A DNA stretch of 22,031 nt from a virus: positions 1-22,031 of the IMG/VR virus record IMGVR_UViG_3300050017_000009. One strand, 5' to 3'. The notes beneath the pieces were generated by a model, which was given only the letters and a program-made list of their open reading frames with translations, did not search any database and had not been told where the DNA came from. The position numbers and the translations under genes were made by a program. Below, one piece after another: positions 3,408-20,984 of this stretch (position 1 is the stretch's first letter; each line of letters starts with the position of its first letter).

Positions 3408-4481
3408 CTAGTAAGTCCAGGGGCCATATGGTAATGAAGGACTTACCGGATTCCACGACATGCCTGTTTCCATAACGTTACTCGACGGCACGAAGCCGAA
3501 GTCATCTTCCTCGCGGGAGCCTTGGCGAACTGCGGCATCGAGCGACTGCATCCACAGTTGATACTCTTGAGTGAACTTCGCCCGCTGTCGTGGGTCCGGG
3601 TGAAAACGGTAGCACTGACAGAAGAAACCCGTCTTGAAGTAGCTGAAGAAGTCATCAGGAATCGGCTCGATGAACTGGTCAAGGGCCGTGAACTGAGGAA
3701 CCTTCGCCTGTCCAATCGGAGCAAGCTGCCACACGGGGCCGGACTGCGAGGGCATTGGACTGATGCGGAATCCTGCTGCTACAGGATTGACCGCTGTCCA
3801 AGTGACGCCGCCGTCCGCGACAGTGATGGGCACCGTCGTCGGGTTGAGCACCGTCGGATATTGGTTGTTCGGATTCTGGTTGGTCGTGAACGGGTTCGTG
3901 TTGCCGCACGTTCCATAGCCTGTCACAATCCACAGGTTGCCGAAGCTGTCACGCACCTGAGTGATTGGGTTGGCCGGGAGAGCCGTCAGCCCACTCGGGT
4001 CACCGATAGTGACGCCGGGACTGGGGTTGTTCAAGCCTGTCAACGAAACGACAGTCGCTTGTCCCCACACGCCGTACTGAAGATTTTTGTTTTGCTCCCA
4101 CTGAATCTTCGCGAGACTTCCCCATTGTGCGTTCGTGATGAGAATGTCTTTGCGAACTTCAACGACTCGGAACGGCTTCGGGACTTGAGTCGAACTCGTG
4201 TTGTACGCTCCGCACGATTCCAACCAACCGAGGTTGAGAATGTTCGACGCGTAATCTTGCTGGTACGAGTTGATGAAGAAAGGTGGGATGTTGATGCGGT
4301 TGAACTTGAAGTTGAACGGCGAACCTTTGGAACTGCCTGCCAGCATCGCGGTCATCGCATCATTCGTAGCAGACAGTGCCACTGTTTCGTATGCACCACC
4401 TGTGGGCAGTGTTGGTGCAAGGTCACCCATCGCTCGTGCTATATCCACGAGCGACTGGACGGTATAGCTACTGTTTCCCAT
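3408..4481 (-). CDS. Virion structural protein with Ig-like insert
   Basis: I place the start at ATG 4481 (GGAG 8 bases upstream), giving 357 aa and a 14-base overlap with the inserted endonuclease upstream; the frame is open 10 codons further but those lie inside that gene. N- and C-terminal segments rich in aromatic residues flank a central domain that carries the phage-type motif ADGGVTWTAVNP (about residues 225-240). A similar DGSITWLNVSP motif occurs in the ice-binding-domain protein at 19532-20929. The C-terminal part (PDDFFSYFKTGFFCQCYRF onward) resembles the 315-aa protein at 1796-2743. Probably a tail or connector protein; the exact role is unknown. Confidence 0.7.
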   Translation of the reverse strand: MGNSSYTVQSLVDIARAMGDLAPTLPTGGAYETVALSATNDAMTAMLAGSSKGSPFNFKFNRINIPPFFINSYQQDYASNILNLGWLESCGAYNTSSTQVPKPFRVVEVRKDILITNAQWGSLAKIQWEQNKNLQYGVWGQATVVSLTGLNNPSPGVTIGDPSGLTALPANPITQVRDSFGNLWIVTGYGTCGNTNPFTTNQNPNNQYPTVLNPTTVPITVADGGVTWTAVNPVAAGFRISPMPSQSGPVWQLAPIGQAKVPQFTALDQFIEPIPDDFFSYFKTGFFCQCYRFHPDPRQRAKFTQEYQLWMQSLDAAVRQGSREEDDFGFVPSSNVMETGMSWNPVSPSLPYGPWTY

Positions 4482-4923
4482 TGAAAGTCTCCAAATAGAC
4501 AGCAGCTTCACGGAGTAGATTCGGGCTGTTTCCGAATAATCCTAAGGCGAGGTTATGTTTGTTACACATCAAACCTCTAGTTTGGCTACGCTCGTGACAA
4601 TGGTCGATATCCGTTGCAGGTTGACCACACGACAATAGAGCACACAACCCATTCTGCTTCTTGAACATTTCTTTATACTGTTCTTCAGTCAGATTGTAGA
4701 GTTTCTGCATTCTATATCGCCGGGAATGCTCACGGGCAATCTTCCTGCGTTCTTCGGGATGCTCTACATTCCATTGCTTCATGCAGAGTTTGCATCCTCG
4801 CCCTGTCAAATTTTCAGGTATGCGAAGATGCCCGCGTTTGCAGTGTGTCTTAACAGGTTTCGGACGCCTTTTGAACACTGCCAGTTCTATATCGGTAAAT
4901 TTTCGTACGTACTTCCGTGGCAT
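4468..4923 (-). CDS. Free-standing EndoVII-type HNH homing endonuclease
   Basis: This 151-aa protein starts at ATG 4923 behind AGGAGA. Cys28, Cys44 and Cys47 (with nearby His32) look like an N-terminal zinc site. The catalytic domain follows: Cys94 and Cys99, then DIDHCH (Asp107-His108), RGLMC (Cys120) and H123-N124, with the usual trailing helix (EAAVYLETF). This matches the recombination endonuclease VII/HNH family, which cuts DNA and in phages usually acts as a mobile homing endonuclease. It sits between a terminator-like hairpin (4947-4969) and the structural gene it overlaps by 14 bases, so it appears to have been inserted between two phage genes without breaking either. Confidence 0.88.
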   Translation of the reverse strand: MPRKYVRKFTDIELAVFKRRPKPVKTHCKRGHLRIPENLTGRGCKLCMKQWNVEHPEERRKIAREHSRRYRMQKLYNLTEEQYKEMFKKQNGLCALLSCGQPATDIDHCHERSQTRGLMCNKHNLALGLFGNSPNLLREAAVYLETFNGKQ

Positions 4924-8226: not shown

Positions 8227-8790
8227 ATGAAAAGAATGAATCTAACAGGACAAACTCTTCAGTCTGGTGTACATGTCGTGTCACCAGCGGGCGTTTCCAT
8301 TCATGGCAAAAGCCAGTGGAACTGCGTGTGCCCCTGCGGGAAGGACTTTATAGCCCTCGGGAGCGAACTCAGGAACAACCACACACGAAGCTGTGGTTGT
8401 TATTCCCGCTCAGGAACCTTCGTTACGAAACACGGGCATCGTAGTGTCACCAAAGGGAGTAATCAACAATCTCCAATGTACACACTATGGATAAACATCA
8501 AGTCACGATGTTTTAATCCCGAACACCCGCATTATGCCGACTACGGGGGTCGGGGCATAACATTGTGCTCTCAATGGACGAGTTCCTTTGAAACTTTCTT
8601 AACCGATGTCGTCAACGCTATTGGCGAGAAGCCGCCGCTTGTAAAAAGTTACAAACGATACTGGTCTATCGACAGAATCAACAACGGTGGCAACTATGAA
8701 CCCGAAAACATTCGATGGGCGAACCCACACGAACAGAAAACGAATCAACGTCCGCGTCGTTGGAGAAAACGACCAGAGGGTGTGGTTTAA
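8227..8790 (+). CDS. Free-standing HNH homing endonuclease (only plus-strand gene)
   Basis: This 187-aa protein has an N-terminal zinc-type module (WNCVCPCGK with Cys33, Cys35, Cys37, then SCGC with Cys56, Cys58). The catalytic region of phage HNH homing endonucleases follows: YADYGGRGITLC (103-114), SIDRINNGGNYEPENIRW (about 147-164) and HEQKTNQRPRR. This family makes specific double-strand breaks that spread its own gene. It opposes all other genes, sits between the capsid gene and the Ig-like gene, has its own promoter and lacks a Shine-Dalgarno site at the first ATG; a second Met at codon 4 is an alternative start. Its stop codon lies in the loop of the hairpin at 8775-8800, which it shares with the capsid gene. 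Confidence 0.9.
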   Translation: MKRMNLTGQTLQSGVHVVSPAGVSIHGKSQWNCVCPCGKDFIALGSELRNNHTRSCGCYSRSGTFVTKHGHRSVTKGSNQQSPMYTLWINIKSRCFNPEHPHYADYGGRGITLCSQWTSSFETFLTDVVNAIGEKPPLVKSYKRYWSIDRINNGGNYEPENIRWANPHEQKTNQRPRRWRKRPEGVV

Positions 8791-8821: not shown

Positions 8822-10786
8822 TTAGGAAATCGCACTTGCAGCGTCGATTTGACGCATACGGCAATGTTGTTACTCACCTTTCGGCGGGATAAGACATTTC
8901 TGCTTACCTCTCATACTTACTTTTCGTATGAGTTCAGACTATCGCATCACCTTTCGGTGTTCTCTCGCTTAGTCGTTCAGGCTGCCTCACGGCTTGCCCC
9001 TTGTTGGCATTTCAGCGTTCAAGTCAATCAGAGAGAATTTAACAACCACCTGTATGCTTTATAGCAGGCTAATGGTTGTGTCTGGTCCGAGGCTGGTCGT
9101 GAAGTGAACACGATAGCTCGTCCCAATAAGGCTCGTACCAGACTTTCCGGTCAGACGAAATTAACCGGGGATGAGACCTTCCGGGTCGGCAACGGTCGGT
9201 TCAGCGTTCTGAACGATGTTGCACTTGATGTTTCGCCAATCGCCATCACCGAAGCTGGTGTCGTTTTGGGCACCGAGGTTGATAGCGAAGATTCCGTCCT
9301 TACCGAAGATGTAGGTACGGAGAGCAGACAGGCCAGTGACGCCCTTATAGTTCGAGGTCTTCGTCACGAGGTTGGTCTGGAAGAAGTGAACGCCAGTGGA
9401 CGGCAGTTCGATTACTTCCTCAAGGTCAACGCTCACGAGTTCGTCCATCTTTGCCTGGCCCACAGGGGTGTGCTTCAGGATGTCGATGGGCGAGTCGTTG
9501 CTGTTGTCAGCCAGCACGTCGCCAAGGGCGAACGGATGGATGACCCCAACGAATGCCATGCTTGCTTCGTCGAACGGACGCACGGAGCGACCCGCCAGCG
9601 ACTGAACGCTGTTACGAATCTGGCTCAGTGAGAGAGCGGTGAAGCTGGACGTGCCCGATGCAGCAAGCTGCACGAGGACGCTGGAGTCGATGCTCGACGC
9701 ACCGTCCGCAGTTGCACGGACCAGAGCAGAGAGGGACTCGCCAAGGCGATACGACATTTCCTTCGCGACGTTCTCGACGGTCGAGTCAATCGCGGTTGCG
9801 AGAGACAGAGACGAGAAGTTCGCATAATCTGCATCAATGTGTTTAGGAGACCGAGATCACCCTCGGTTCGCTCTGCATGTCACCATGCAGTTCAGACTCT
9901 ATCTTTACGATACGGGAGTATCGATGTTTGACGTATTAGTCGTTGGGGATTTAGAATGAGGTTGAGAAGAATTATTCAAGGCTAACATTATGTGCCGCAG
10001 CCTATCACGTTCTTCTGGGACATCTTGTCCGTGCAATCTAGCAAAGTCTAGGGCAACTTGTGCCTGTTGTTTCTTAACGATTAAATACGGCAGAATAGCA
10101 AGAATAAAACTTTCCATTTTGCCATTACCCGTAATCGTCAAATCCCATTTAGGTTTCCAATCACATACCTGTTTTTTATTAGAAAGTTGTCCACCGAAGT
10201 GTTCAACAATCCAATCCAATACCTGTTTGTTGGTATTGGTGATCTTAACGTGCAAGTGATATCGAATTCCCTTGACTTTACTGCCATCAACTCGCTTCTT
10301 AATCTGGTAGGTTTTGACGATGGAGAAGCTACCTTCCCCGTCCATGAAACCTGCTAGATACGCAGCATTTGATTGTGAAGACATTCTATCTTTCCTCCGT
10401 CTCGTCTGATTCTATCAGAGATTGACGGATATAGTCAAATTTAAACAGTGAGCGACAGATTTTCACTCACCGATGGTCGCAGTCGTGGTCAACACAGAAA
10501 CGCTGAGGGATGAACCTACAGTACCTTCCGTGGTCTGGTTGGTATTAGCAGCCAGCGGAACATACATAAACATTTCGTATTGATTTCCACTCTTCATGGG
10601 GAGGTCAAGGCGTTCCGCACAACGTACGAACGGAGTGTTAGCCTTCAAATTCTCCCGAAATCTTTTGTCGTAATACTTCCATCACGACTCCTATTAGAAA
10701 CCACTCTCCTAATCTTAGCGACTCACGGCAAAGACCGTGGATTGGGGGAGGTTAGATAGCTGGTTTCCAGCAGGACTAAATGACAT
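8822..10786 (-). CDS. Major capsid protein, N4-gp56-like, in five exons
   Basis: The HK97-fold capsid protein that forms the shell. It must be read as join of 10786-10734, 10679-10465, 9834-9163, 9123-9072 and 8861-8822: 1032 bases, 343 aa. ATG 10786 follows AAAGGTGA. Recognisable N4-gp56-family segments run across every junction: NQLSNLPQSTV|KYYDKRF, TTTATIGEY|ADYANFSSL, GLIPGW|TSYRVHF, PDTTI|RMRQIDAAS. The joined codons are GT|G (Val18), T|AT (Tyr90), T|GG (Trp314) and AT|C (Ile331). Interruptions 2 and 4 are group I introns; 1 and 3 are 54 and 39 nt with group I-like ends only. The family assignment and junctions come from remembered family conservation plus the sequence; splicing is inferred. 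Without removal of all four, no full capsid protein could be made. Confidence 0.85.
8862..9071 (-). ncRNA. Group I intron, 210 nt, no ORF (capsid intron 4)
   Basis: P1: exon end ACAACCAU (ending at 9072) pairs with the internal guide GUGGUUGU (9049-9042), with the splice-site U opposite G. Downstream, in order: ACGCU and AUGCC (P3/P4), a GGGGC...GAGGC region (P5/P6), GACUA (P7), AGCG (P3'), CACC-GAAA-GGUG (P8) and UAGUCUGAAC (P7'). P9-type hairpins follow (CUCAUAC/GUAUGAG, GGUAAG/CUUAUCC, CGCC-GAAA-GGUG). It ends in CAUUG with the expected terminal G at 8862. Removal joins AT|C to give TTIRMRQIDAAS. All parts are visible, so the call is strong. Confidence 0.9.
9124..9162 (-). other. 39-nt interruption with group I-like ends (capsid element 3)
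   Basis: The in-frame stop TAA directly follows DPEGLIPG. The exon end CCGGUU (ending at 9163) can pair with GACCGG inside the element, placing the splice-site U opposite G as in a group I P1. The element ends in UUAUUG (G at 9124). Its removal gives T|GG, the Trp of GLIPGWTSYRVHF. An ACCGGA-AAG-UCUGGU hairpin can also form, and TGGTACGAGC near its end imperfectly repeats the junction TGGGACGAGC. There is no space for P3-P8, so it cannot self-splice alone. Confidence 0.65.
9161..9834 (-). CDS. Capsid exon 3 (main exon, read-through to in-frame stop at 9161)
   Basis: This is the central two-thirds of the capsid protein, about 224 codons from DYANFSSLSLATAID through SYRLGESLSALVRATADG to DPEGLIPG. 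Unspliced it ends at TAA 9163-9161; after removal of the next 39 bases the first T of that stop becomes the first base of a Trp codon. An internal ATG at 9757 is not the true start, because conserved capsid sequence continues upstream to 9834. Confidence 0.85.
9905..10384 (-). CDS. Intron-encoded LAGLIDADG homing endonuclease
   Basis: This 159-aa protein starts at ATG 10384 behind GGAGG. A single LAGLIDADG motif (LAGFMDGEG, residues 10-18, with Asp15/Glu17 acidic residues) indicates a homodimeric enzyme, which would cleave intronless capsid alleles at the exon junction so that the intron is copied in by repair; some members also act as maturases. The body (ITNTNKQVLDWIVEHFGG, WDLTITG) fits the family. 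Its last 15 or so codons (PTTNTSNIDTPVS) also specify P7, P3' and P8 of the ribozyme. LAGLIDADG enzymes are less common in phage introns than HNH or GIY-YIG types. Confidence 0.92.
   Translation of the reverse strand: MSSQSNAAYLAGFMDGEGSFSIVKTYQIKKRVDGSKVKGIRYHLHVKITNTNKQVLDWIVEHFGGQLSNKKQVCDWKPKWDLTITGNGKMESFILAILPYLIVKKQQAQVALDFARLHGQDVPEERDRLRHIMLALNNSSQPHSKSPTTNTSNIDTPVS
10409..10438 (-). promoter_or_regulatory. Possible internal promoter for the intron ORF
   Basis: TTGACT (10438-10433) and TAGAAT (10414-10409) are 18 bases apart on the minus strand, 24 bases before the LAGLIDADG start. The same bases form P3 to P5 of the intron, so the match may be incidental. Confidence 0.3.
10465..10679 (-). 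CDS. Capsid exon 2
   Basis: It encodes the conserved N-arm and early core of the capsid protein: KYYDKRFRENLKANTPF, then ERLDLPMKSGNQYEMFMY and EGTVGSSLSVSV, ending in TATIGE. In frame it is preceded by TGA and followed within one codon by TGA, so it cannot be expressed on its own as a normal gene; a TTG at 10648 lies inside the conserved part and is not a credible start. Confidence 0.85.
10680..10733 (-). other. 54-nt interruption with group I-like ends (capsid element 1)
   Basis: It splits codon 18 of the capsid gene and holds five in-frame stops. Exon end CACGGU (ending at 10734) pairs with GCCGUG after a 4-base loop, again with U opposite G. A second hairpin, AUUAG(g)AGA-GUGG-UUUCUAAU, fills the middle. 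The element ends in GUGAUG (G at 10680). Removal joins GT|G and gives LPQSTVKYYDKRF, as expected for the family. It is far too short for a group I core. Confidence 0.65.
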
Positions 10787-11975: not shown

Positions 11976-12350
11976 CTAGTTGGCTTCGTCCGATAAATCC
12001 TGTCCAATAAATTCGACTGGATAGGGCGGTTGTTCCGGGTTATCAGCGGTGCCGATACCTTGAGCGTTATATTGTTGAACTTGCAGGATGCCAACGAGGC
12101 GTTGCATCAACCCCGCATAAAACATTCCCGCACCCTTAGCGACGGCATGGTTGGCCAGAATTTCTTGGGGATTTGCGGTATCCGTATTCAACAGTTTTAT
12201 ATTCAGTAGCTTGACTTCTCTCTCCATCAATTTCTGAAGTAAGTCAAACCACTCTTGCTTAACCGCTGAAGCAAGCAGGGCACAATCTTTCTCAGAAAGT
12301 TCAAAATCCATGTCGAGACCTTTAACAGCCCCCTCCGTAACTTTTAGCAC
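11976..12350 (-). CDS. Small conserved-looking head-region protein, unknown
   Basis: I choose GTG 12350 as start (124 aa) because GAGGAG lies 7 bases upstream; an earlier GTG at 12374 would put that ribosome site inside the coding sequence. The protein is mainly helical (ELSEKDCALLASAVKQEW, then LMEREVKLLNIKLL) with a helical hairpin near AKGAGMFYAGLMQRLVGIL and an acidic C-terminus. It lies between portal and scaffold, but its family is not recognised. Its first codons overlap the end of the GIY-YIG gene by 7 bases. Confidence 0.65.
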   Translation of the reverse strand: MLKVTEGAVKGLDMDFELSEKDCALLASAVKQEWFDLLQKLMEREVKLLNIKLLNTDTANPQEILANHAVAKGAGMFYAGLMQRLVGILQVQQYNAQGIGTADNPEQPPYPVEFIGQDLSDEAN

Positions 12351-12805
12351 GAAGCCCTCCTCTTTACCCACCACGCTTTAATCGCGGCGGATTTATTAGC
12401 GTTCGCAAGAACCGAATACTTATAGCCTTTTGGACAGCCATGTCCAGAAGCATTCTGGTTTTCCATCTTGGCAAGAGACATCCGACGACAGGATTCTATC
12501 GAGGCTCGTTTACCAGTCCGATTAGTGTTACCTCGCAACTTTTCCTTCGCTTCTTTTCTATGACGATATCCTATCGGACCATCCCCGCCATCAGTGAGGT
12601 TTATCAGACAGCCCGTTGATAAATCTTTCCGACCGAATAGCGAGATTAAAAACTTTTCGGCTTGAAACGCATCTTCGTGAGTTAAAAAATCTTGCACTAT
12701 GATTCGTTCTCGGGGAGGGCTACCTCGTCGCCATGCTCGATTCTTCGTACCTTTGCCAACGTAATACGGACTCCCATCTTCTCGAAGCCAAAGATATGTA
12801 TACAT
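12344..12805 (-). CDS. Free-standing GIY-YIG homing endonuclease
   Basis: The start is ATG 12805 behind AAGGAGA, giving 153 aa; the frame is open 16 codons further but runs back into the hairpin. The GIY-YIG core appears as YTYLWLREDGSPYYVGKG (residues 2-19) with Arg23, and Glu50 in AFQAEKFL is the probable metal-binding residue. The C-terminal half (RKEAKEKLRGNTNRTGKRAS onward) resembles NUMOD3-type DNA-binding repeats found in such enzymes. It sits between the portal terminator and the next head gene, which it overlaps by 7 bases, without disrupting either. Confidence 0.9.
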   Translation of the reverse strand: MYTYLWLREDGSPYYVGKGTKNRAWRRGSPPRERIIVQDFLTHEDAFQAEKFLISLFGRKDLSTGCLINLTDGGDGPIGYRHRKEAKEKLRGNTNRTGKRASIESCRRMSLAKMENQNASGHGCPKGYKYSVLANANKSAAIKAWWVKRRASC

Positions 12806-12815
12806 GACTCTCCTT

Positions 12816-12852
12816 AGAAAAAGAGTTGAGGGGTGTTCTAAGGCACCCCTCA
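12816..12852 (-). terminator. Terminator-like hairpin after the portal gene
   Basis: In the minus sense TGAGGGGTG (12852-12844) pairs with CACCCCTCA (12835-12827) around an 8-base loop, followed by ACTCTTTTTC. It lies 24 bases after the portal stop and just before the ribosome site of the GIY-YIG gene. Confidence 0.7.
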
Positions 12853-12876
12853 TTCTACGGGTTATAACGCCGTAGA

Positions 12877-15006
12877 CTACTCGACCGTGGGAAGCTGACC
12901 TTGTAAACCTTGTTGAGAAGGTTCACCATTCACGGCTTCCGAAAGCCCGCTAGCTTTGGCCGCCTCACGAGTAATGTCTCGTTTGATACGGTTGTCGCTA
13001 GCTTGGTCTTCAAGCTGTTGTTTTTGCTGAAACTTCTGCTGGTCGCCTTGCTGTTTTGCTTGCATCTGTTGTTGCATCAAAGCAGCTTTAGAATTCTGCT
13101 GACGCTGTTGAATCATCTCAGGGGTCATCTTCTTGATGATATCCTGCTTGTTCTTCCATTCCGACGCTTCGAGCCACATGCTGATGATTGGCTTGAAGTC
13201 GATGTACTCTTGGTTGATGTCCGCGAGACTCTGTTGAATCTGTGGATTGTCGAGAATCTGCGTGAGCATGACCATCGACTGTGCCATCGTTCGCTTTGCA
13301 GCGAGTGACGACCCTGCGAGTACCTCGTATTCGATTTGCGAATCGTGGAAGGACTGGATGCTGAAGCCCTTCAGGAAGTCCGTGCCCATCTCGTTGCCGA
13401 GGATGTGCAGGATGGCCGCATCGGACATGACGTTGAAGACGAGCATGTCGATGATGCCGAGGAACGGTTTGAATACCTGTTCGATGAAGTTGTCGAGCGG
13501 ACCATCAAGACGAGTGGCCGAAGCCCCTGCCATGATGTTCGCACCCGCTGCTGACCGACCCATGCCGGAGCGTGGGCCAGCCGAAGACCCTTGAACGAGC
13601 GTTTGGTCTGCTCCAGAGGACGATTCCGTTGCCGTCTCGCTCTCTTTCAATGCAGCCCAGATGTCACCGGGAACCTTCGGGGTTTCCATCAGCTTGTACG
13701 ACTTCTCAGTGTCCGTGACCGAGAGAATCTTGCCCAGACCCGTACGAATCGTTTGGGTCGGTGCGTTGTCTTCGCGGTTACGGAGATAAATTGGGTTGAC
13801 GCCGTAGCTCAGAATTTTGAGGATGGCGTTGATGGTGCCTTGGTCCACACGCTGGTTCTGGCCGACGATGAGTCCGAGACCCATGCCGTAGAATGCACGC
13901 GGACGGTTCCACCAATTCGCACTCAAGAACGGAATCCGTTTGAACTCGTTCTCGGTCGAACAAATGACATGCTCTTGGTTGAGGACGACAATCTTGCGTC
14001 CCTTGTCCCAATACTCCAGAATCTCCAGCTTCTTGCGGAACGGGTCCGGCGAAACCTTGATGTTGTTTTTCTCAGCGTGATGTACAACGCCTTCGATGTA
14101 GGTCGCCTGTTCCGTTTCGAGAGTCGCTGCGTTTGTTCCCGGCTTCTCCCAGAGGGCTTTCAATGACGCTTCTGTTGGGAATGTCCAGCCCTGAATTGCT
14201 TTGCCCGTCTCGCCGTCTTTGATGGCGTTTTCAATCGCGTCTTTCAACGCTTTGAGTTGGTAGAAGTCCATGTACTGGACATCGACAACCCACGCTGCAC
14301 GCCGGATGTCCGCGACCCACAACTGCGGGTCAACGAGCACCTTGTCAATCGGACGCCAATAGAAGAATGGCATCGGGACGGTCATCACTCCTTCAGTGAT
14401 GTCAGGAGGAACGTCGGACGGAATACGAATCGTTGCTTCCGCTCCCGGCTCCCCGCTTGTAATTTCGTGGACAGTCGCCTTACGCTTGTAAGTAAGGATG
14501 TCCTTCCAGTCGTAGCCCCACTTGAAGATGCCCGTTCCGAGGAACGCCATCTGTTCGAGTCCCCACTTGGTCTGCGTTTTGAATTCGCAGTTGTCAAGGA
14601 TGAACGAGAACAGCGAGGTCTTCGCATCGACAACTTCCTGAGAAGTGCCGGGGCGAGGCCGCATCAACATTGGCGGGTCGTCATAGAACAGACCCTTGTA
14701 AAGCTGAGGCACAACAGCGTTGACAACCTTTGCGACCGTAAACCGCTGAACGTTCGGTTCGAGAACGTAAGTGTTCTCGTAGACCGTCATCGGACGCGGG
14801 CTTTGATACAGGAGGTCAGCGTCTCGCCAGAGGAGGGACCATTGGCGATTCGCGATGTACGCTTTGGCTTGGGCGGCACTCTGCACAACCAAGGCAAGTT
14901 CGCCTCCGATTGTTTTCAGGGTGCCGTCGTTCTTGAAGTCTTGGCCTGTCAGGACCGCGTTCGGATTGCCATCGGGCTGTGGTGCTGCAACTTGTGTCGC
15001 TTCCAT
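12877..15006 (-). CDS. Portal protein
   Basis: This 709-aa protein directly follows the terminase (11-base gap) and starts at ATG 15006 behind AAAGGG. Recognisable portal features are the early helical region (YIANRQWSLLWRDADLLYQS), the sequence PFLSANWWNRPRAFYGMGLG with downstream VGQNQRVDQGTINAILKIL (stem/wing region), and a long Gln/Lys-rich coiled coil near residues 625-680 typical of a C-terminal crown. Length agrees with portals of podovirus-like phages with N4-type capsids. It forms the dodecameric ring through which DNA enters the head. Assignment rests on position, length and these segments. Confidence 0.88.
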   Translation of the reverse strand: MEATQVAAPQPDGNPNAVLTGQDFKNDGTLKTIGGELALVVQSAAQAKAYIANRQWSLLWRDADLLYQSPRPMTVYENTYVLEPNVQRFTVAKVVNAVVPQLYKGLFYDDPPMLMRPRPGTSQEVVDAKTSLFSFILDNCEFKTQTKWGLEQMAFLGTGIFKWGYDWKDILTYKRKATVHEITSGEPGAEATIRIPSDVPPDITEGVMTVPMPFFYWRPIDKVLVDPQLWVADIRRAAWVVDVQYMDFYQLKALKDAIENAIKDGETGKAIQGWTFPTEASLKALWEKPGTNAATLETEQATYIEGVVHHAEKNNIKVSPDPFRKKLEILEYWDKGRKIVVLNQEHVICSTENEFKRIPFLSANWWNRPRAFYGMGLGLIVGQNQRVDQGTINAILKILSYGVNPIYLRNREDNAPTQTIRTGLGKILSVTDTEKSYKLMETPKVPGDIWAALKESETATESSSGADQTLVQGSSAGPRSGMGRSAAGANIMAGASATRLDGPLDNFIEQVFKPFLGIIDMLVFNVMSDAAILHILGNEMGTDFLKGFSIQSFHDSQIEYEVLAGSSLAAKRTMAQSMVMLTQILDNPQIQQSLADINQEYIDFKPIISMWLEASEWKNKQDIIKKMTPEMIQQRQQNSKAALMQQQMQAKQQGDQQKFQQKQQLEDQASDNRIKRDITREAAKASGLSEAVNGEPSQQGLQGQLPTVE

Positions 15007-15017
15007 GCAATCCCTTT

Positions 15018-17012
15018 CTAACCGAGCAGGTCACCGAGCGGGTCAGAAGCCATGTATGCCGCGTCGTCCGCAGCTTGCTTCGCGAGAGTGTCCGGGGCTT
15101 GCTCAGGAAATTCCAGAGCAAGATTGTGAGCGTTGTACTTGTCGTACTTGCCCAACCCATAAACCTGGTCGTAGAACGACTTGCCTTTGGGGTCCGGGGT
15201 GTAGTCGAGCGAAGCGGCCTGCAACTTGGCGTCGATGTCCGCGTAACTGGAGAAGGTGTTGACGAGAATCGCGAGAGCATCCACGATGTCATCGTGCGTG
15301 CTTGCCGCAGTCCCGAACTTGCTCAACTCGTCGTAGAGGTCTTCGAGAGACGGGCAAGTGTTCACGAACTTCAGTCGGTCGTCACCAAGGAATCGAAGGA
15401 CTGGTCCGGCCTTCATCTGCTTCGAGTTCTTCTTCGAGCCTTGGCCGAGCGGCACTAGCTCAATCGGGCAGCGACACTTCAGCTTGTCCATCTCGCGATA
15501 GACTTCACGCTGAATGTACTTCATAGCTCCCGTCTCTTCGATGCAAACCCGTTTAGGTTTCCACTTGAGAGCCGTTGCCGCAATCATGGCCGGGAGAGTG
15601 TATTCGTCGTAGCGGCCTCGCGACATGTCTATGATGTAGAATCGCCCCTGACTAATCAGTGCGGTAACTATGACTGTGTAATCCGCCCACGACTTTGTCG
15701 AGTAGGCAGTGTCCACGCAAGTCACAATCATCCCGGTGCTGGGAACCTCGACAGCGTTCACCGTTTTACGGATGAGCATCTCGCGAGGGAACTTGATGAC
15801 GTGCATCTGTGTCGGGTCATTCAAGTATTTGATTGCGAAGTACGGGTCAGTCTTTTTCTTGTGATAGAGGAATTCGTAGGTGAGTTGGCCTTCGACATTG
15901 AACCACAAGTCGTAGTCGGCCTTAGTCATCTCGTCTTCGATTTTTCCAGCCTTGCGTGCGACCTCGTTCGGCCACCAGCACGGACGGATGTAAATCTTCA
16001 TCGGGCAGATTTCGCCCTCCTCCTCGTACATCTTCATGGCCTTGATGTCTTGGCCGTAGGTGTCTTCGGAGTCGTACCACGTTCCAATCTTGTCGTAGAA
16101 CCCATACGGGTGCAACATAGCTTGGTTGATGGACACTTGCTTGTTGACTGCCTTCAGTCGTTCGACCGTCAGCGAGTTCTCGTTGGTGACCACGTCATCC
16201 AGTTTCAGGATGCAGACGTGGAAACCTGTCAAAGACTGTTCGATAGATGCCGAGAAAACAGTCGGCTCTTTCTGTCGATTGGAGACAGCGGGCGTTTGAA
16301 ACTCACTCGCCTTGCCGTCGTCCAGCGGAATGCAATGCTCCGCGAACAGTGCTTGAAACAAGAATGGTGTGCCATCGCCCATCGTGCGTGGACAGAAATT
16401 CTTCTTTTCGACAAACAGACCAGCGAAGTCAGCCCCACCTTCTTCAAGCGTGAAGTGACCTTTGATTTCGCCAACGAACTTGTTAGCGAGGGACAGCACG
16501 CCGGAGAGCACGAGAATCGTAATCTCGGGGAAGCTAAGAACCCACTGCACACAATCCGCCATGTTCATCGTGGATTTGAATCCACCACGGGGGACGAGCA
16601 GTAGTCGTTCTTTCTTGTCGATGTAGTTCTTAATCGACGAGAATTCCTTGAAGGTCTTGTACGTCGGGTTCTTCCGAACGAAGAACTCGTTGCAAATCTC
16701 TTCGTGAGTGTTGTGGACCGTGCCGTCAATCCAATTGTATTCTTGGTCGCTCATGTCCTTGTAGAGTTCAAGGAGTTTGCAGAGAAAGAACAGATCGGTC
16801 TGGGCCATGAATCGTGCCCGCTTGAGGAGCACTTCGTCTGTCAAGCCGAACTTCGCACAGACTTTGAAGACCTTCGTCATTCGCTCTTGAGTGAGCCGGT
16901 CGAAAGAAATCTTAGCCTTCGCATCGAACTCCTCCCACGACATGTCGCGGTGCTGGTAGTTCTTGTCCGATTTGTGCTTATGTACCAGTTCAGACAGTTG
17001 GTCCGGTGTCAC
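15018..17012 (-). CDS. terL: Terminase large subunit
   Basis: This 664-aa DNA-packaging motor starts with GTG 17012 behind GAGGAG. The ATPase domain holds Walker A LLVPRGGFKST (138-148) and Walker B CILKLDDVV (about 267-275; the family norm is D-E, here D-D). The nuclease domain of RNase H fold shows CVDTAYSTKSWADYT (Asp434), VCIEETGA (Glu492) and HDDIVDAL (Asp574/575/578). No small terminase subunit is recognised in the window. The frame is intact and, unlike the capsid gene, shows no interruption. Confidence 0.96.
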   Translation of the reverse strand: MTPDQLSELVHKHKSDKNYQHRDMSWEEFDAKAKISFDRLTQERMTKVFKVCAKFGLTDEVLLKRARFMAQTDLFFLCKLLELYKDMSDQEYNWIDGTVHNTHEEICNEFFVRKNPTYKTFKEFSSIKNYIDKKERLLLVPRGGFKSTMNMADCVQWVLSFPEITILVLSGVLSLANKFVGEIKGHFTLEEGGADFAGLFVEKKNFCPRTMGDGTPFLFQALFAEHCIPLDDGKASEFQTPAVSNRQKEPTVFSASIEQSLTGFHVCILKLDDVVTNENSLTVERLKAVNKQVSINQAMLHPYGFYDKIGTWYDSEDTYGQDIKAMKMYEEEGEICPMKIYIRPCWWPNEVARKAGKIEDEMTKADYDLWFNVEGQLTYEFLYHKKKTDPYFAIKYLNDPTQMHVIKFPREMLIRKTVNAVEVPSTGMIVTCVDTAYSTKSWADYTVIVTALISQGRFYIIDMSRGRYDEYTLPAMIAATALKWKPKRVCIEETGAMKYIQREVYREMDKLKCRCPIELVPLGQGSKKNSKQMKAGPVLRFLGDDRLKFVNTCPSLEDLYDELSKFGTAASTHDDIVDALAILVNTFSSYADIDAKLQAASLDYTPDPKGKSFYDQVYGLGKYDKYNAHNLALEFPEQAPDTLAKQAADDAAYMASDPLGDLLG

Positions 17013-17887: not shown

Positions 17888-18385
17888 TTAATCCTTTCCA
17901 AAAAACTGGGGTAACGACTTCCATCGCTCCCTCGCGTGGCTTCTCATGCCGACGCCGGGGTCGTACTTGTCGTACATGTGCCGGAACTGACGCTCCGCAC
18001 CGATAAATCCTTGAGGCATCTCACCGACCGCGTGCAGATATATCAGCACGATGGACGGGCTGCGACTCATGCCCGCGTTGCAGTGGACAAGAAGGATGCG
18101 ACCTTTGTCCTGCATTTCCTTGATGAACTTCAGCCCCGCGTCGATGACCTTGTCGGGAATCATGTCCGGGTCTTCAACGTCGATGAGGTTGAGTGCCATC
18201 ACATCGCCTTTGCGGGCGAAGTAGTAATCTTTTCCATCGGGAGCACTGCGACCTTCGTATTCGAGCATCGAGCGATGCGAGTCAATCCCATCCTTACAGC
18301 AGCAAAGCCGAGCATATCCGCGACGTTTCGCCTCTGCGACATCCTCGTCGGAGCCAAGATATAAACCTTTTATGATTTCTTCCAC
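17888..18385 (-). CDS. Dual-specificity protein phosphatase
   Basis: This 165-aa protein starts with GTG 18385 behind GGAGG. The active-site loop HCNAGMSRSPS (His101, Cys102, Arg108) is the C-x5-R signature of cysteine-based phosphatases, and the upstream LNLIDVEDPDMIP contains a candidate general acid (Asp69 or Asp72). The start, IIKGLYLGSDEDVAEAK, is the typical opening strand and helix of DUSP domains. The domain covers the whole protein, so it should be catalytically complete. It would remove phosphate from Tyr/Ser/Thr residues or other substrates. Its presence within the packaging/structural gene row is unusual; the target is unknown. Confidence 0.92.
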   Translation of the reverse strand: MEEIIKGLYLGSDEDVAEAKRRGYARLCCCKDGIDSHRSMLEYEGRSAPDGKDYYFARKGDVMALNLIDVEDPDMIPDKVIDAGLKFIKEMQDKGRILLVHCNAGMSRSPSIVLIYLHAVGEMPQGFIGAERQFRHMYDKYDPGVGMRSHARERWKSLPQFFGKD

Positions 18386-18398
18386 GGCCCCTCCGAGA

Positions 18399-18791
18399 TT
18401 ATATTCCTATCGCGATAAAATTTATGACATTGGTTCCAGTTCCGGTAAAAGTCAACGTAGTCCCCGAAGTCTTAACGACTAAGACTGAGTGATTGGCGGT
18501 GACATCTAACGCCACGACGTTGTAGCTACCCGCCGAGGAAAACGCCGCTAATCCGGTGAGGGTTACCGTCGCACCGCCTGCGGAAAGAGTCACCGTGTCC
18601 GAGACTATGTGTGGGTTCGATACCCGAGTTCCCGCCGTGTTAAAAACTGGGAGACCGAGTAGGAAATTCCCACCCGGTATCCCAATTATGATTTCGTTCG
18701 TGTCAGTCGCTAGGTAGCTTTCTCCGGATTCGAGAATCGGAGCATTAGCTTTGACACCCCGCATTATCTGTAACCCGAGATTACGAGCCAT
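18399..18791 (-). CDS. Small fibre/appendage protein with tropism-determinant-like N-terminus
   Basis: This 130-aa protein starts at ATG 18791 behind AGGAGG. Residues 5-45 (LQIMRGVKANAPILESGE, then ATDTNEIIIG) resemble the short N-terminal domain of phage fibre and major-tropism-determinant-like proteins, in which Q-[IL]-x-R-G-T-x-A-x-x-P-x-L-x-x-G-E is followed by a T-D-x-x-x-[IL]-x-[IV]-G strand. The rest is a Thr/Val-rich beta domain. The gene follows a relative (18800-19318) that starts in the same way. Probably a small virion spike or fibre component. Confidence 0.7.
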   Translation of the reverse strand: MARNLGLQIMRGVKANAPILESGESYLATDTNEIIIGIPGGNFLLGLPVFNTAGTRVSNPHIVSDTVTLSAGGATVTLTGLAAFSSAGSYNVVALDVTANHSVLVVKTSGTTLTFTGTGTNVINFIAIGI

Positions 18792-18799
18792 GAAACCTC

Positions 18800-19318
18800 C
18801 TAGAAGGTTCCACAGTCAATGTTAGTCAAACTCGACCCTGCTCCAATAGTTGCAGGCAGTTGAGTCTGGGCTAACAGCCCCGAAATGTCAGTGAACGCAG
18901 GCTGTGACAAGTGCTGTATACCCGACGAATCAATATAAGTAACCCACTCATGAGCAACGGGTGCTCCGAGCGGCGTAACATCTGGACTGGTAATCGGTGT
19001 CCAGTTCGCCAGCGTAGACGCGGGGTAGGATTGAAGAATGTACGTGACTCCAGTACCTGTGTCAATTGCGAAATCACCAACGCCCGCAGCAAGTGCGGTC
19101 AGCCCCGCTGAAGTTGCCACAGTGAAAACGTTATGAGAATTCTCGACAGGTGCCCATGCTTTTCCGGGTCCAATACCGGGGGTTCCGGTCCCTGTATCGA
19201 CAAACAATTGGTTTGAATCGGTAGTCCACGCAAGAACGCCGGGAAATCCGGTCGTCGCCAGCGAAGATAAATCTGAGAGGGTGCCGCGATATGTTTGAAT
19301 CTTGATGTTCAGTGCCAT
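18800..19318 (-). CDS. Small fibre/appendage protein
   Basis: This 172-aa protein starts at ATG 19318 behind AGGAG. It opens with IKIQTYRGTLSDLSSLATTG and AWTTDSNQLFVDTG, the same type of fibre N-terminal domain as its neighbour at 18399-18791. A middle beta region and a short C-terminal tail follow; the protein ends in DCGTF. The 63-aa protein encoded just upstream ends in the same five residues, suggesting a shared interaction tail. Probably a virion appendage; the precise role is unknown. Confidence 0.7.
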   Translation of the reverse strand: MALNIKIQTYRGTLSDLSSLATTGFPGVLAWTTDSNQLFVDTGTGTPGIGPGKAWAPVENSHNVFTVATSAGLTALAAGVGDFAIDTGTGVTYILQSYPASTLANWTPITSPDVTPLGAPVAHEWVTYIDSSGIQHLSQPAFTDISGLLAQTQLPATIGAGSSLTNIDCGTF

Positions 19319-19328
19319 GATATTTCTC

Positions 19329-19520
19329 CTAGAAAGTCCCGCAATCCTGTAACGTCGGAGCGGCTGAAGAGATTATGGAATTCAACTGTATTCCTGAACC
19401 CGCAACATTTCCGAATCCGTCAGCAATTAAAACAACGCCCTCAGACTGGAAGTGTAAGTTCCAGTCTGCGGTTGCTGCGATAGGATTCGTACCGGACCCT
19501 TGACCGTTAAGGGTAGACAT
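19329..19520 (-). CDS. Very small appendage-like protein ending in DCGTF
   Basis: This 63-aa protein starts at ATG 19520 behind AAGGA, and its stop merges into the AGGAG of the next gene. Sequence such as ATADWNLHFQSEGVVLIADG suggests a small beta domain. It shares its final DCGTF with the 172-aa neighbour. It may be a tip or accessory protein of the same appendage. No family is recognised. Confidence 0.6.
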   Translation of the reverse strand: MSTLNGQGSGTNPIAATADWNLHFQSEGVVLIADGFGNVAGSGIQLNSIISSAAPTLQDCGTF

Positions 19521-19531
19521 GAGTTTCGTCC

Positions 19532-20929
19532 TTAGTTTTCCAACACAATCGCCAAACCAGTTGGAGCAGTCGGCGGTGCTGGGGGAACATTAGGAGGAGA
19601 TGGCGGAAGTGCAAGACAGATTAATGCACTCGCAGGAGAAACGTTAAGCCACGTAATAGAACCGTCGGTAGTGTTTCCGTTTACCGTACCATTAAAAATT
19701 GGTCGCGTTGCACCTGAAGTGCCCGCAATCACAACCTCTTGGAAGCTATCTGTCGCGTCGTCAAAAGTGACTTCACCCACAGAGTACTTGGTATTCGCTT
19801 GCCAGTTACCCGCGAAAGGGAGCATGTTAAACAGCACGACGTTATTGCCCGCGAGAGTAATTGCTCCCGTCAGTGCAAGCAATCGTCCGTTCACCGTAGC
19901 ACTTGTGTTGACCGCGATACTGGCTTGGGCCACAATCGACCCGACAAAAGTCGTATCAGTTCCGAGGGTAGCGGAACTACCAACCTGCCAGAACACATTC
20001 GCTGCTTGAGCCCCATTGACGAGCAGGATAGCACTATTTGATGCCGCCGTCGTCAGAGCACTTCCAATCTGGAATATCCAGGCTGCGTTCGGGTTTCCTT
20101 GAGCGTCCAGAGTCAAAATTCCAGTCACGCCGATTGTCGAGGACGAAGTGTAAACACCCGGAGTTAAAGACTGGCCACCGAGGTCACCTGAAATAGTCTG
20201 GGTACTCGTCATCAACATCAAAGCGTTATATAGTTGCTGTGCCGCTGCTTGACCGTTAGCCGCAACGAAGTCAGCCGCGTGGAACACACCGCTGATTACT
20301 CCGGGGGGAAATCCGGTAATAGATGTGCCGGGGTAAGTCCCCACATCACCCGATAGATTGGTTGCTCCTGTGCTCGTGACGGTGGACGAGGCCAGAACAA
20401 TAAAACTATCCAATCCTGTTAATTCAGGGGCTAAAGGAGTCGGACCAAACGGAACTGGTGAAGATTCAATGCCAAGAGAATCAGCACTCTCAACACCGCC
20501 GCTCACTGCCGTGATTTCGTAGCTGTACGAAATGCCGGGGAATACGTTCAGGTCGGTGTATTGAGGAATCTGGTTTGCCAACGCGACATGAGTTTCTGAG
20601 ACACCATTGGGGTTGGTCAAAGTCAAACTTGTCGCAGTCGAAGCTGTACACGCAAAGGTTCCGTTGTTAGGAACGTTGTTAAAGCCTGAAATCTTAAAAG
20701 AAAACCCTGCCCAAGCATTTCCCGCCGCACCTGAAAAACTTCCGGCGTAGACAGTAGACCCGCTCACCGCAGCCGCAACCGAGGATATAGTCCCCGGCGA
20801 AAAGACTGTCACCAAAGTGGCGTTAATAGGTGCCACACCTTCGTTACCGGGTAGTGTTCCTCGGTAAACATTGTAACCTGATACCGGAGTCGCACTCGGG
20901 TTCCATTGCAAAACAATTTCACTAGACAT
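19532..20929 (-). CDS. Fibre-like protein with ice-binding (DUF3494) domain
   Basis: ATG 20929 is chosen (AGAAGG 7 bases upstream; 465 aa); the frame is open 37 codons further without a ribosome site. An FN3-like fold is split (about 1-30 and 120-160) by an inserted Gly/Ser/Thr-rich domain (45-115). Residues about 172-366 match DUF3494, the ice-binding-protein fold: ITGFPPGVISGVFHAAD, LTPGVYTSSSTIGVTG, LTLDAQGNPNAAWIFQIGS, ANVFWQVGSSATLGTDTTFVG, and ATVNGRLLALTGAITL. A C-terminal module follows (YSVGEVTF... TDGSITWLNV), then a Pro-rich tail. DUF3494 proteins in bacteria bind ice or act as adhesins; here a surface-binding role in the virion is inferred. No signal peptide is seen. Confidence 0.85.
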   Translation of the reverse strand: MSSEIVLQWNPSATPVSGYNVYRGTLPGNEGVAPINATLVTVFSPGTISSVAAAVSGSTVYAGSFSGAAGNAWAGFSFKISGFNNVPNNGTFACTASTATSLTLTNPNGVSETHVALANQIPQYTDLNVFPGISYSYEITAVSGGVESADSLGIESSPVPFGPTPLAPELTGLDSFIVLASSTVTSTGATNLSGDVGTYPGTSITGFPPGVISGVFHAADFVAANGQAAAQQLYNALMLMTSTQTISGDLGGQSLTPGVYTSSSTIGVTGILTLDAQGNPNAAWIFQIGSALTTAASNSAILLVNGAQAANVFWQVGSSATLGTDTTFVGSIVAQASIAVNTSATVNGRLLALTGAITLAGNNVVLFNMLPFAGNWQANTKYSVGEVTFDDATDSFQEVVIAGTSGATRPIFNGTVNGNTTDGSITWLNVSPASALICLALPPSPPNVPPAPPTAPTGLAIVLEN

Positions 20930-20984
20930 ATTGTACCTTCTTGTTTCCCAACATAGGACCGGGACTTTCCACAAACTATGTTTA

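Follow-up and report, generated by a model that had tools for sequence, protein, structure and literature searches.

The window analysed here, a whole stretch of 22,031 bases of an IMG/VR virus record, carries on its minus strand a gene for a 465-aa protein in which a DUF3494 domain of the ice-binding type is fused to phage modules. This gene probably encodes a modular accessory virion-surface protein of a podovirus resembling phage Tunturi_3, with DUF3494 as an exchangeable adhesion domain. The protein is read as a virion component because of its phage modules, its structural neighbourhood, the lack of a signal peptide and the repeated insertion of the same domain into virion proteins of other phages. 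Viral ice-binding genes have so far been read as auxiliary genes protecting the host; here, the domain is found in structural-type proteins of phages.

The minus strand of the window forms a coherent structural block of a tailed phage, with genes for the terminase large subunit, the portal and the capsid, fibre-like genes and several homing endonucleases (Table 1). The start of the DUF3494 gene was placed at ATG 20929, which is common to the relatives L002 and L003 and has the Shine-Dalgarno sequence AAGAAGG upstream, and the gene limits given in the sequence-only reading (19532–20929) are thus correct. A longer, mechanically called ORF starting at ATG 21040 is without a Shine-Dalgarno sequence and was dropped. 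The dN/dS ratio, calculated for the window against L002 (91% identity), was 0.067 for the whole gene and 0.039 for the DUF3494 domain; both are under purifying selection. The N-terminus (MSSEIVLQWNPSATPVSG) has no hydrophobic core after Lys/Arg, i.e. no export signal by this heuristic rule (not SignalP).

Table 1. Features of the DUF3494 gene and its neighbourhood in the window
Feature	Position	Strand	Evidence
DUF3494-bearing virion-type protein gene P0001, 465 aa	19532..20929	-	ORF with its own Shine-Dalgarno AAGAAGG; homologues with the same start and ends
Shine-Dalgarno AAGAAGG of the DUF3494 gene	20936..20942	-	read off the sequence
N-terminal beta-rich, FN3-like region, residues 1-170	20420..20929	-	conserved in 13 homologues; modelled strands; fn3 E 0.024
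Mobile module, residues 47-127	20549..20791	-	not present in L018 or L019; two copies in L015
Beta-solenoid of the ice-binding type, DUF3494 (PF11999), residues 178-364	19838..20398	-	Pfam, six-frame match, Foldseek, B-face
C-terminal module, residues 374-429	19643..19810	-	phrog_20658 (head decoration) E 5e-4; Tunturi_3 gp13 and gp19
Pro-rich tail, residues 433-465, LPPSPPNVPPAPPTAPTGL...	19535..19633	-	conserved in 13/13 homologues; predicted disordered
63-aa gene that follows the DUF3494 gene in the cassette	19329..19520	-	order kept in L003, L013, L019
172-aa fibre-type gene of the cassette	18800..19318	-	order kept in L003, L013, L014, L019; phrog_5207 (unknown function) 1e-7
130-aa tail fibre/Mtd_N-like gene	18399..18791	-	phrog_32740 (tail fiber) 1.7e-18; Mtd_N E 0.0019, below the Pfam cut-off
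Dual-specificity phosphatase; anchors the synteny to Tunturi_3 ORF146	17888..18385	-	PF00782 6.4e-9; 41% to Tunturi_3
Terminase large subunit	15018..17012	-	phrog_38 2e-46; Tunturi_3 46%
Portal protein	12877..15006	-	PF23899 1e-11; Tunturi_3 61%

The sequence-only reading had noticed a DUF3494 pattern in the protein and proposed a search with the PF11999 profile. This search gave a match with an E-value of 1.2e-58 and 198.6 bits (cut-off of 28.7), spanning positions 1-207 of the 208-position profile, so the pattern is a complete PF11999 domain; at an E-value of 1e-58 a chance match is ruled out. Nearly all solved relatives of the domain are ice-binding or antifreeze proteins, and the best of them by sequence are the ice-binding proteins EfcIBP (6EIO; 4e-46), 5UYT and AnpIBP1a (7BWX). 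The AlphaFold (AF2) model of the window protein (mean pLDDT of 78.8) has a long helix (residues 221-238) beside a right-handed beta-solenoid, and in Foldseek it matched AnpIBP (7BWY) with a target-normalised TM-score of 0.95 and an rmsd of 1.0 Å. The DUF3494 ice-binding-type fold is thereby confirmed. A six-coil solenoid, a long helix and a B-face of small residues are common to the window domain and to AnpIBP1a (7BWX), EfcIBP (6EIO) and SfIBP_1 (6BG8); however, these proteins are secreted or cell-surface and ice-active, whereas the window protein, known from sequence and a model, lacks a signal peptide and is joined to phage modules. Among cultured phages, neither the whole protein nor the domain had relatives beyond three unconvincing matches at E 3, and tblastn against the whole phage collection yielded no credible DUF3494 copy. 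The best matches to the fold in BFVD, three named DUF3494 proteins (A0A3G5A745 and two others), all belong to Hyperionvirus, which is a giant virus of eukaryotes and not a phage.

The anatomy of the protein was deduced from 13 homologues. They show a modular build: an N-terminal beta region opening with the pattern MSxEITxxWNPSPxxVSGYNVYRGT is followed by an approximately 80-aa module, which several relatives lack at this place, by DUF3494 and by a C-terminal module of some 60 aa. The Pro-rich end is conserved and is retained even in homologues lacking the C-terminal module. Modules of phage fibre type, as suggested from the letters alone, are indeed present on both sides of DUF3494. Residues 47-127 have two counterparts in Tunturi_3 gp7 (annotated as tail fiber; E 6e-11), and a similar module sits within the DUF3494 domain of four homologues. 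Residues 352-430 recur in Tunturi_3 gp13 (3.7e-9; annotated tail protein) and gp19 (4.9e-7; head decoration), and BFVD has phage proteins, some of them baseplate wedge entries, with a segment folded similarly to the C-terminal module. The match of the window gene to a virion protein family, phrog_20658, is weak and not decisive, and the link to the virion is made by common modules and synteny. As to the FN3-like flank that had also been described, its beta character holds, since the N-terminus is modelled as beta strands, while the FN3 assignment is weakly supported (fn3 match below cut-off).

The closest cultured phage for the terminase, the portal and the protein encoded at 3408-4511 (45%) is in each case Tunturi_3 (PP885686), to which the capsid protein is also similar (approximately 80%), and with which the window shares gene order and modules. 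Tunturi_3 is a podovirus from Finnish tundra soil infecting Tunturiibacter psychrotolerans X5P2 (PMC11924767), a member of the Acidobacteriota; the host of the window phage is probably also an acidobacterium. The DUF3494 gene, lying upstream of the terminase and portal genes and outside the tail block, forms a cassette with the 63-, 172- and 130-aa genes between a homologue of ORF143 (5.9e-12) and the ORF146-like phosphatase. In Tunturi_3, this site is instead taken by ORF144 and the 118-aa ORF145, and a profile search of 45.6 kb of this phage detected no DUF3494. The possibility that the contig had picked up a gene for a secreted host protein was considered and dropped, given that phage modules flank the domain on either side and that the region is syntenic with Tunturi_3.

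Other features of this phage group were also recorded. The 63- and 172-aa proteins have a common C-terminal motif, DCGTF, possibly an assembly or attachment signal, and the phosphatase gene occupies the same place, beside the terminase gene, in Tunturi_3. Tunturi_3-like capsid genes were found in at least 194 IMG/VR stretches (including L169-L248), on contigs of up to about 99 kb, which shows that this phage group is common there. In Tunturi_3, the capsid protein (gp6; exons approximately 80% identical) is continuous, whereas the capsid gene of the window (9161-10786, minus strand) is interrupted after ...TTATIGE by a region containing a LAGLIDADG endonuclease gene (9905-10384; PF00961 6.9e-8). 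This region also matches the group I intron family, though weakly (RF00028, E 5.6e-5, under the gathering score). In the relative L086 (13381-15900), the capsid gene is in about five pieces. A second insert, at about 10679-10732 (minus strand) between ...NLPQSTV and KYYDKRF, comprises 54 nt, is in-frame and contains a stop; the matching insert of L086 (~15800-15860) has 60 nt, and its 3' hairpin shows paired changes relative to the window. The site is uninterrupted in 60 of 82 relatives, and several carry, at roughly this place, a long insert that resembles an intron and contains an endonuclease ORF. At 54 nt, the insert of the window falls far short of the size of a group I intron; bypass, a remnant and an internal start are the candidate explanations. 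In all, the structural genes are interspersed with four genes for homing-type endonucleases, which differ in class (endonuclease VII, HNH, LAGLIDADG and GIY-YIG-like) and are located at 4468-4923, 8227-8790 (plus strand), 9905-10384 and 12344-12853.

A profile-guided scan of IMG/VR, in which the contigs are fragmentary, revealed at least 75 DUF3494 loci, most of which encode long proteins without an export signal. By a crude rule, which asks for Lys/Arg followed by a hydrophobic core, a secreted-looking start is present in 77 of 80 cellular DUF3494 proteins versus 8 of 74 viral ones, of which about five are convincing. The viral proteins carrying the domain include clear virion parts (i-iii) and insertions relative to proteins of Tunturi_3 (iv and v): (i) a contractile tail sheath (L064; phrog_2839 5.5e-30, PF17482 4.3e-11), (ii) the L029 group, homologous to L064 (1e-49) and to the protein annotated as sheath in Tunturi_5 (7e-13), (iii) a baseplate-J wedge (L060; PF04865 3.5e-16, phrog_6 5.7e-30), a family matched by 4 of the 47 proteins scanned, (iv) two homologues of gp19 (L083 and L049), which align with it on both sides of DUF3494, and (v) a homologue of gp7 (L252), in which DUF3494 (245-443) lies between gp7-like ends. 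The direct PHROG and Pfam scan of L029 gave no sheath match, and its sheath assignment comes through L064, Tunturi_5 and the solved sheath 5LI2, which is matched by the joint profile of the L029 group and L064 (E 3e-4); for the L041 sheath, profile and pairwise evidence was used instead of the AlphaFold model, which is poor outside DUF3494 (pLDDT of 56). A common sheath segment (46% over 68 aa) precedes DUF3494 in L029 and follows it in L064, and the domain has therefore entered homologous sheaths at two places. In L083, residues 805-1112 correspond to gp19 711-1000 and residues 1336-1477 to gp19 995-1135, with DUF3494 (1133-1323) between them. Of the loci L249-L259, which include L252, only L249, L252, L254 and L255 were used (L250, L251, L253 and L256-L259 were left out). 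Together, these alignments show, at the level of sequence comparison, repeated insertion of DUF3494 into unrelated outer proteins of environmental phages. The window family formed one clade (SH-aLRT 91) when 154 domains were placed in a tree, and the virus/cell labels need only 8 changes, which points to mainly viral lineages rather than fresh captures, although the cellular set consisted of the best 80 hits and is biased.

Two peculiarities were seen among these loci. In L082, L085 and L054, DUF3494 aligns in a permuted or split manner (in L085, profile positions 51-193 and then 3-53), as if circularly permuted. In L051, the domain occurs in two adjacent structural genes, at the end of a baseplate-J-like gene and, in two copies, in a 1634-aa fibre-like gene.

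The collection of viral proteins bears on the possibility that the window gene is an auxiliary gene, i.e. that its product is a soluble, released ice-binding protein that shields the infected cell against freezing. Such a role has been published for other viral PF11999 genes: three PF11999 vOTUs are treated in PMC11515562 as auxiliary genes for host cryoprotection, and one viral antifreeze gene is reported in PMC8407431. A few viral copies (L023, L025/L026, L036 and L084) do possess signal peptides. The genes of PMC11515562 are of the same Pfam family and likewise come from viral contigs, but are reported there in terms of host cryoprotection. The window protein, in contrast, is without an export signal, carries phage modules in the same chain and is encoded in a structural cassette, and fusions to sheaths and baseplates cannot be secreted cryoprotectants, which makes this role very improbable for the window gene. 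Incorporation of the protein into the virion of the window phage is, on the comparisons above, likely.

The domain is accessory within this phage group, DUF3494 being present in 8 of 48 Tunturi_3-like contigs; one contig has it at three places, and about fifteen contigs longer than 84 kb are without any. This, and the fact that modules come and go among the homologues, would also fit a structural spacer or stabilising domain without a ligand, a sturdy beta domain in exposed loops like the Ig-like domains. With the AnpIBP B-face, which was located by mutation (PMC7277481), as the reference, the outward residues of the window domain are S182 T183 T185 T187, G355 A356 T358 A360, A336 S337 A339 N341, S318 S319 T321 G323, S290 A291 T293 A295 and S264 T265 G267 T269. 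They form a flat, partly hydroxylated face of small residues, 23 of 24 being G/A/S/T. Across 71 viral domains, the B-face sites (columns 1, 2 and 4) are 96% G/A/S/T, and their mean entropy is 0.60 versus 1.11 elsewhere (P 2e-4) and 0.93 for the inward residues beneath. A spacer needs no such conserved face, and the conservation therefore counts against this explanation, which is unlikely. It is quite probable, judging from this pattern, that the B-face has a binding function.

What the face would bind is less clear. Cellular DUF3494 relatives, largely from mesophilic soil actinobacteria and not from cold specialists, have 93% G/A/S/T at the B-face sites, and since these mesophilic domains share the B-face, it cannot separate ice from another flat surface. 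The same virion protein might therefore bind a polymer of the host or matrix (capsule, exopolysaccharide or S-layer), with ice being irrelevant. The spread of DUF3494 with the same face in mesophilic soil bacteria agrees with this, as do the fibre-type neighbours of the window gene, one with an Mtd_N-like start, and those cellular copies that have sortase-type ends or an adjacent class F sortase, as in cell-surface adhesins. However, insertion into sheaths and baseplates, and not only at fibre tips, fits general adhesion better than the binding of one specific receptor, and the flat face of small residues seems to offer none of the aromatic or charged pockets that glycan binders usually have; polymer binding, the main rival to ice, is considered somewhat unlikely. 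Ice is plausible as the most specific candidate ligand, and as the main ligand it is proposed only tentatively. Two types of column 2 have been described (PMC12337378): a Ser/Thr/Ala type tied to frozen sediment, rock and subsurface, noted in EfcIBP, and an Ala-rich type tied to polar sea and glacier ice. The window domain has the Ser/Thr/Ala and not the Ala-rich type, with columns mapped after AnpIBP, which may differ slightly from the mapping of that study. The sequence-only reading, which saw a phage protein sticking to surfaces, thus stands as to the protein family, its fusion with phage modules and the sticky virion, in keeping with the sheath, baseplate, gp7-like and gp19-like insertions; its choice of ligand is not settled by sequence.

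As a virion-surface adhesion module, the domain may be compared with the Ig-like domains of virions (Hoc and the model of bacteriophage adherence to mucus, on which the literature includes PMC6867891 and PMC11853027). These are likewise accessory beta domains that come and go between relatives and serve non-specific adhesion. Their fold is unrelated, and the window domain, a beta-solenoid, would work alike without being a member of that group. No paper joining DUF3494 with phages, or ice-binding with tail sheaths and phages, was found in a search that lay mostly outside subscription journals, and the eCIS receptor-domain catalogue has ice-binding only in a reference. A search for the IMG sample identifiers, meant to reveal the environment, likewise brought up no paper naming them. 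As far as can be told, the domain family and accessory virion domains are each known, and their repeated union is new.

The following mode of action is proposed. The protein would serve as a short fibre, or as a decoration protein, in a podovirus, the host of which is probably an acidobacterium, attached to the particle by its N-terminal region, C-terminal module and Pro-rich tail. The flat B-face, with its small Ser/Thr/Ala/Gly side chains, would lie on an ordered, extended surface, and with many copies per particle (sheath or decoration display), weak contacts could sum to firm attachment. Phages would in this way be held at the ice/water or matrix layer, where their hosts live. It is conceivable, although the odds are rather against it, that phages of cold soils have, time and again, equipped sheaths, baseplates, fibres and decoration-like proteins with an ice-binding domain, and that their particles adsorb to ice.

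A virion-borne domain predicts that particles partition onto ice or the soil matrix, and related phages with and without DUF3494 offer a clear comparison. In contractile sheaths, the domain would be present in very many copies per particle, and it provides a naturally displayed surface-binding module for study. If the proposal is true, there are ice-binding virions, and their adhesion would be a trait steering free phages when soil or peat freezes, which bears on phage persistence and host encounter in frozen soils and peat.
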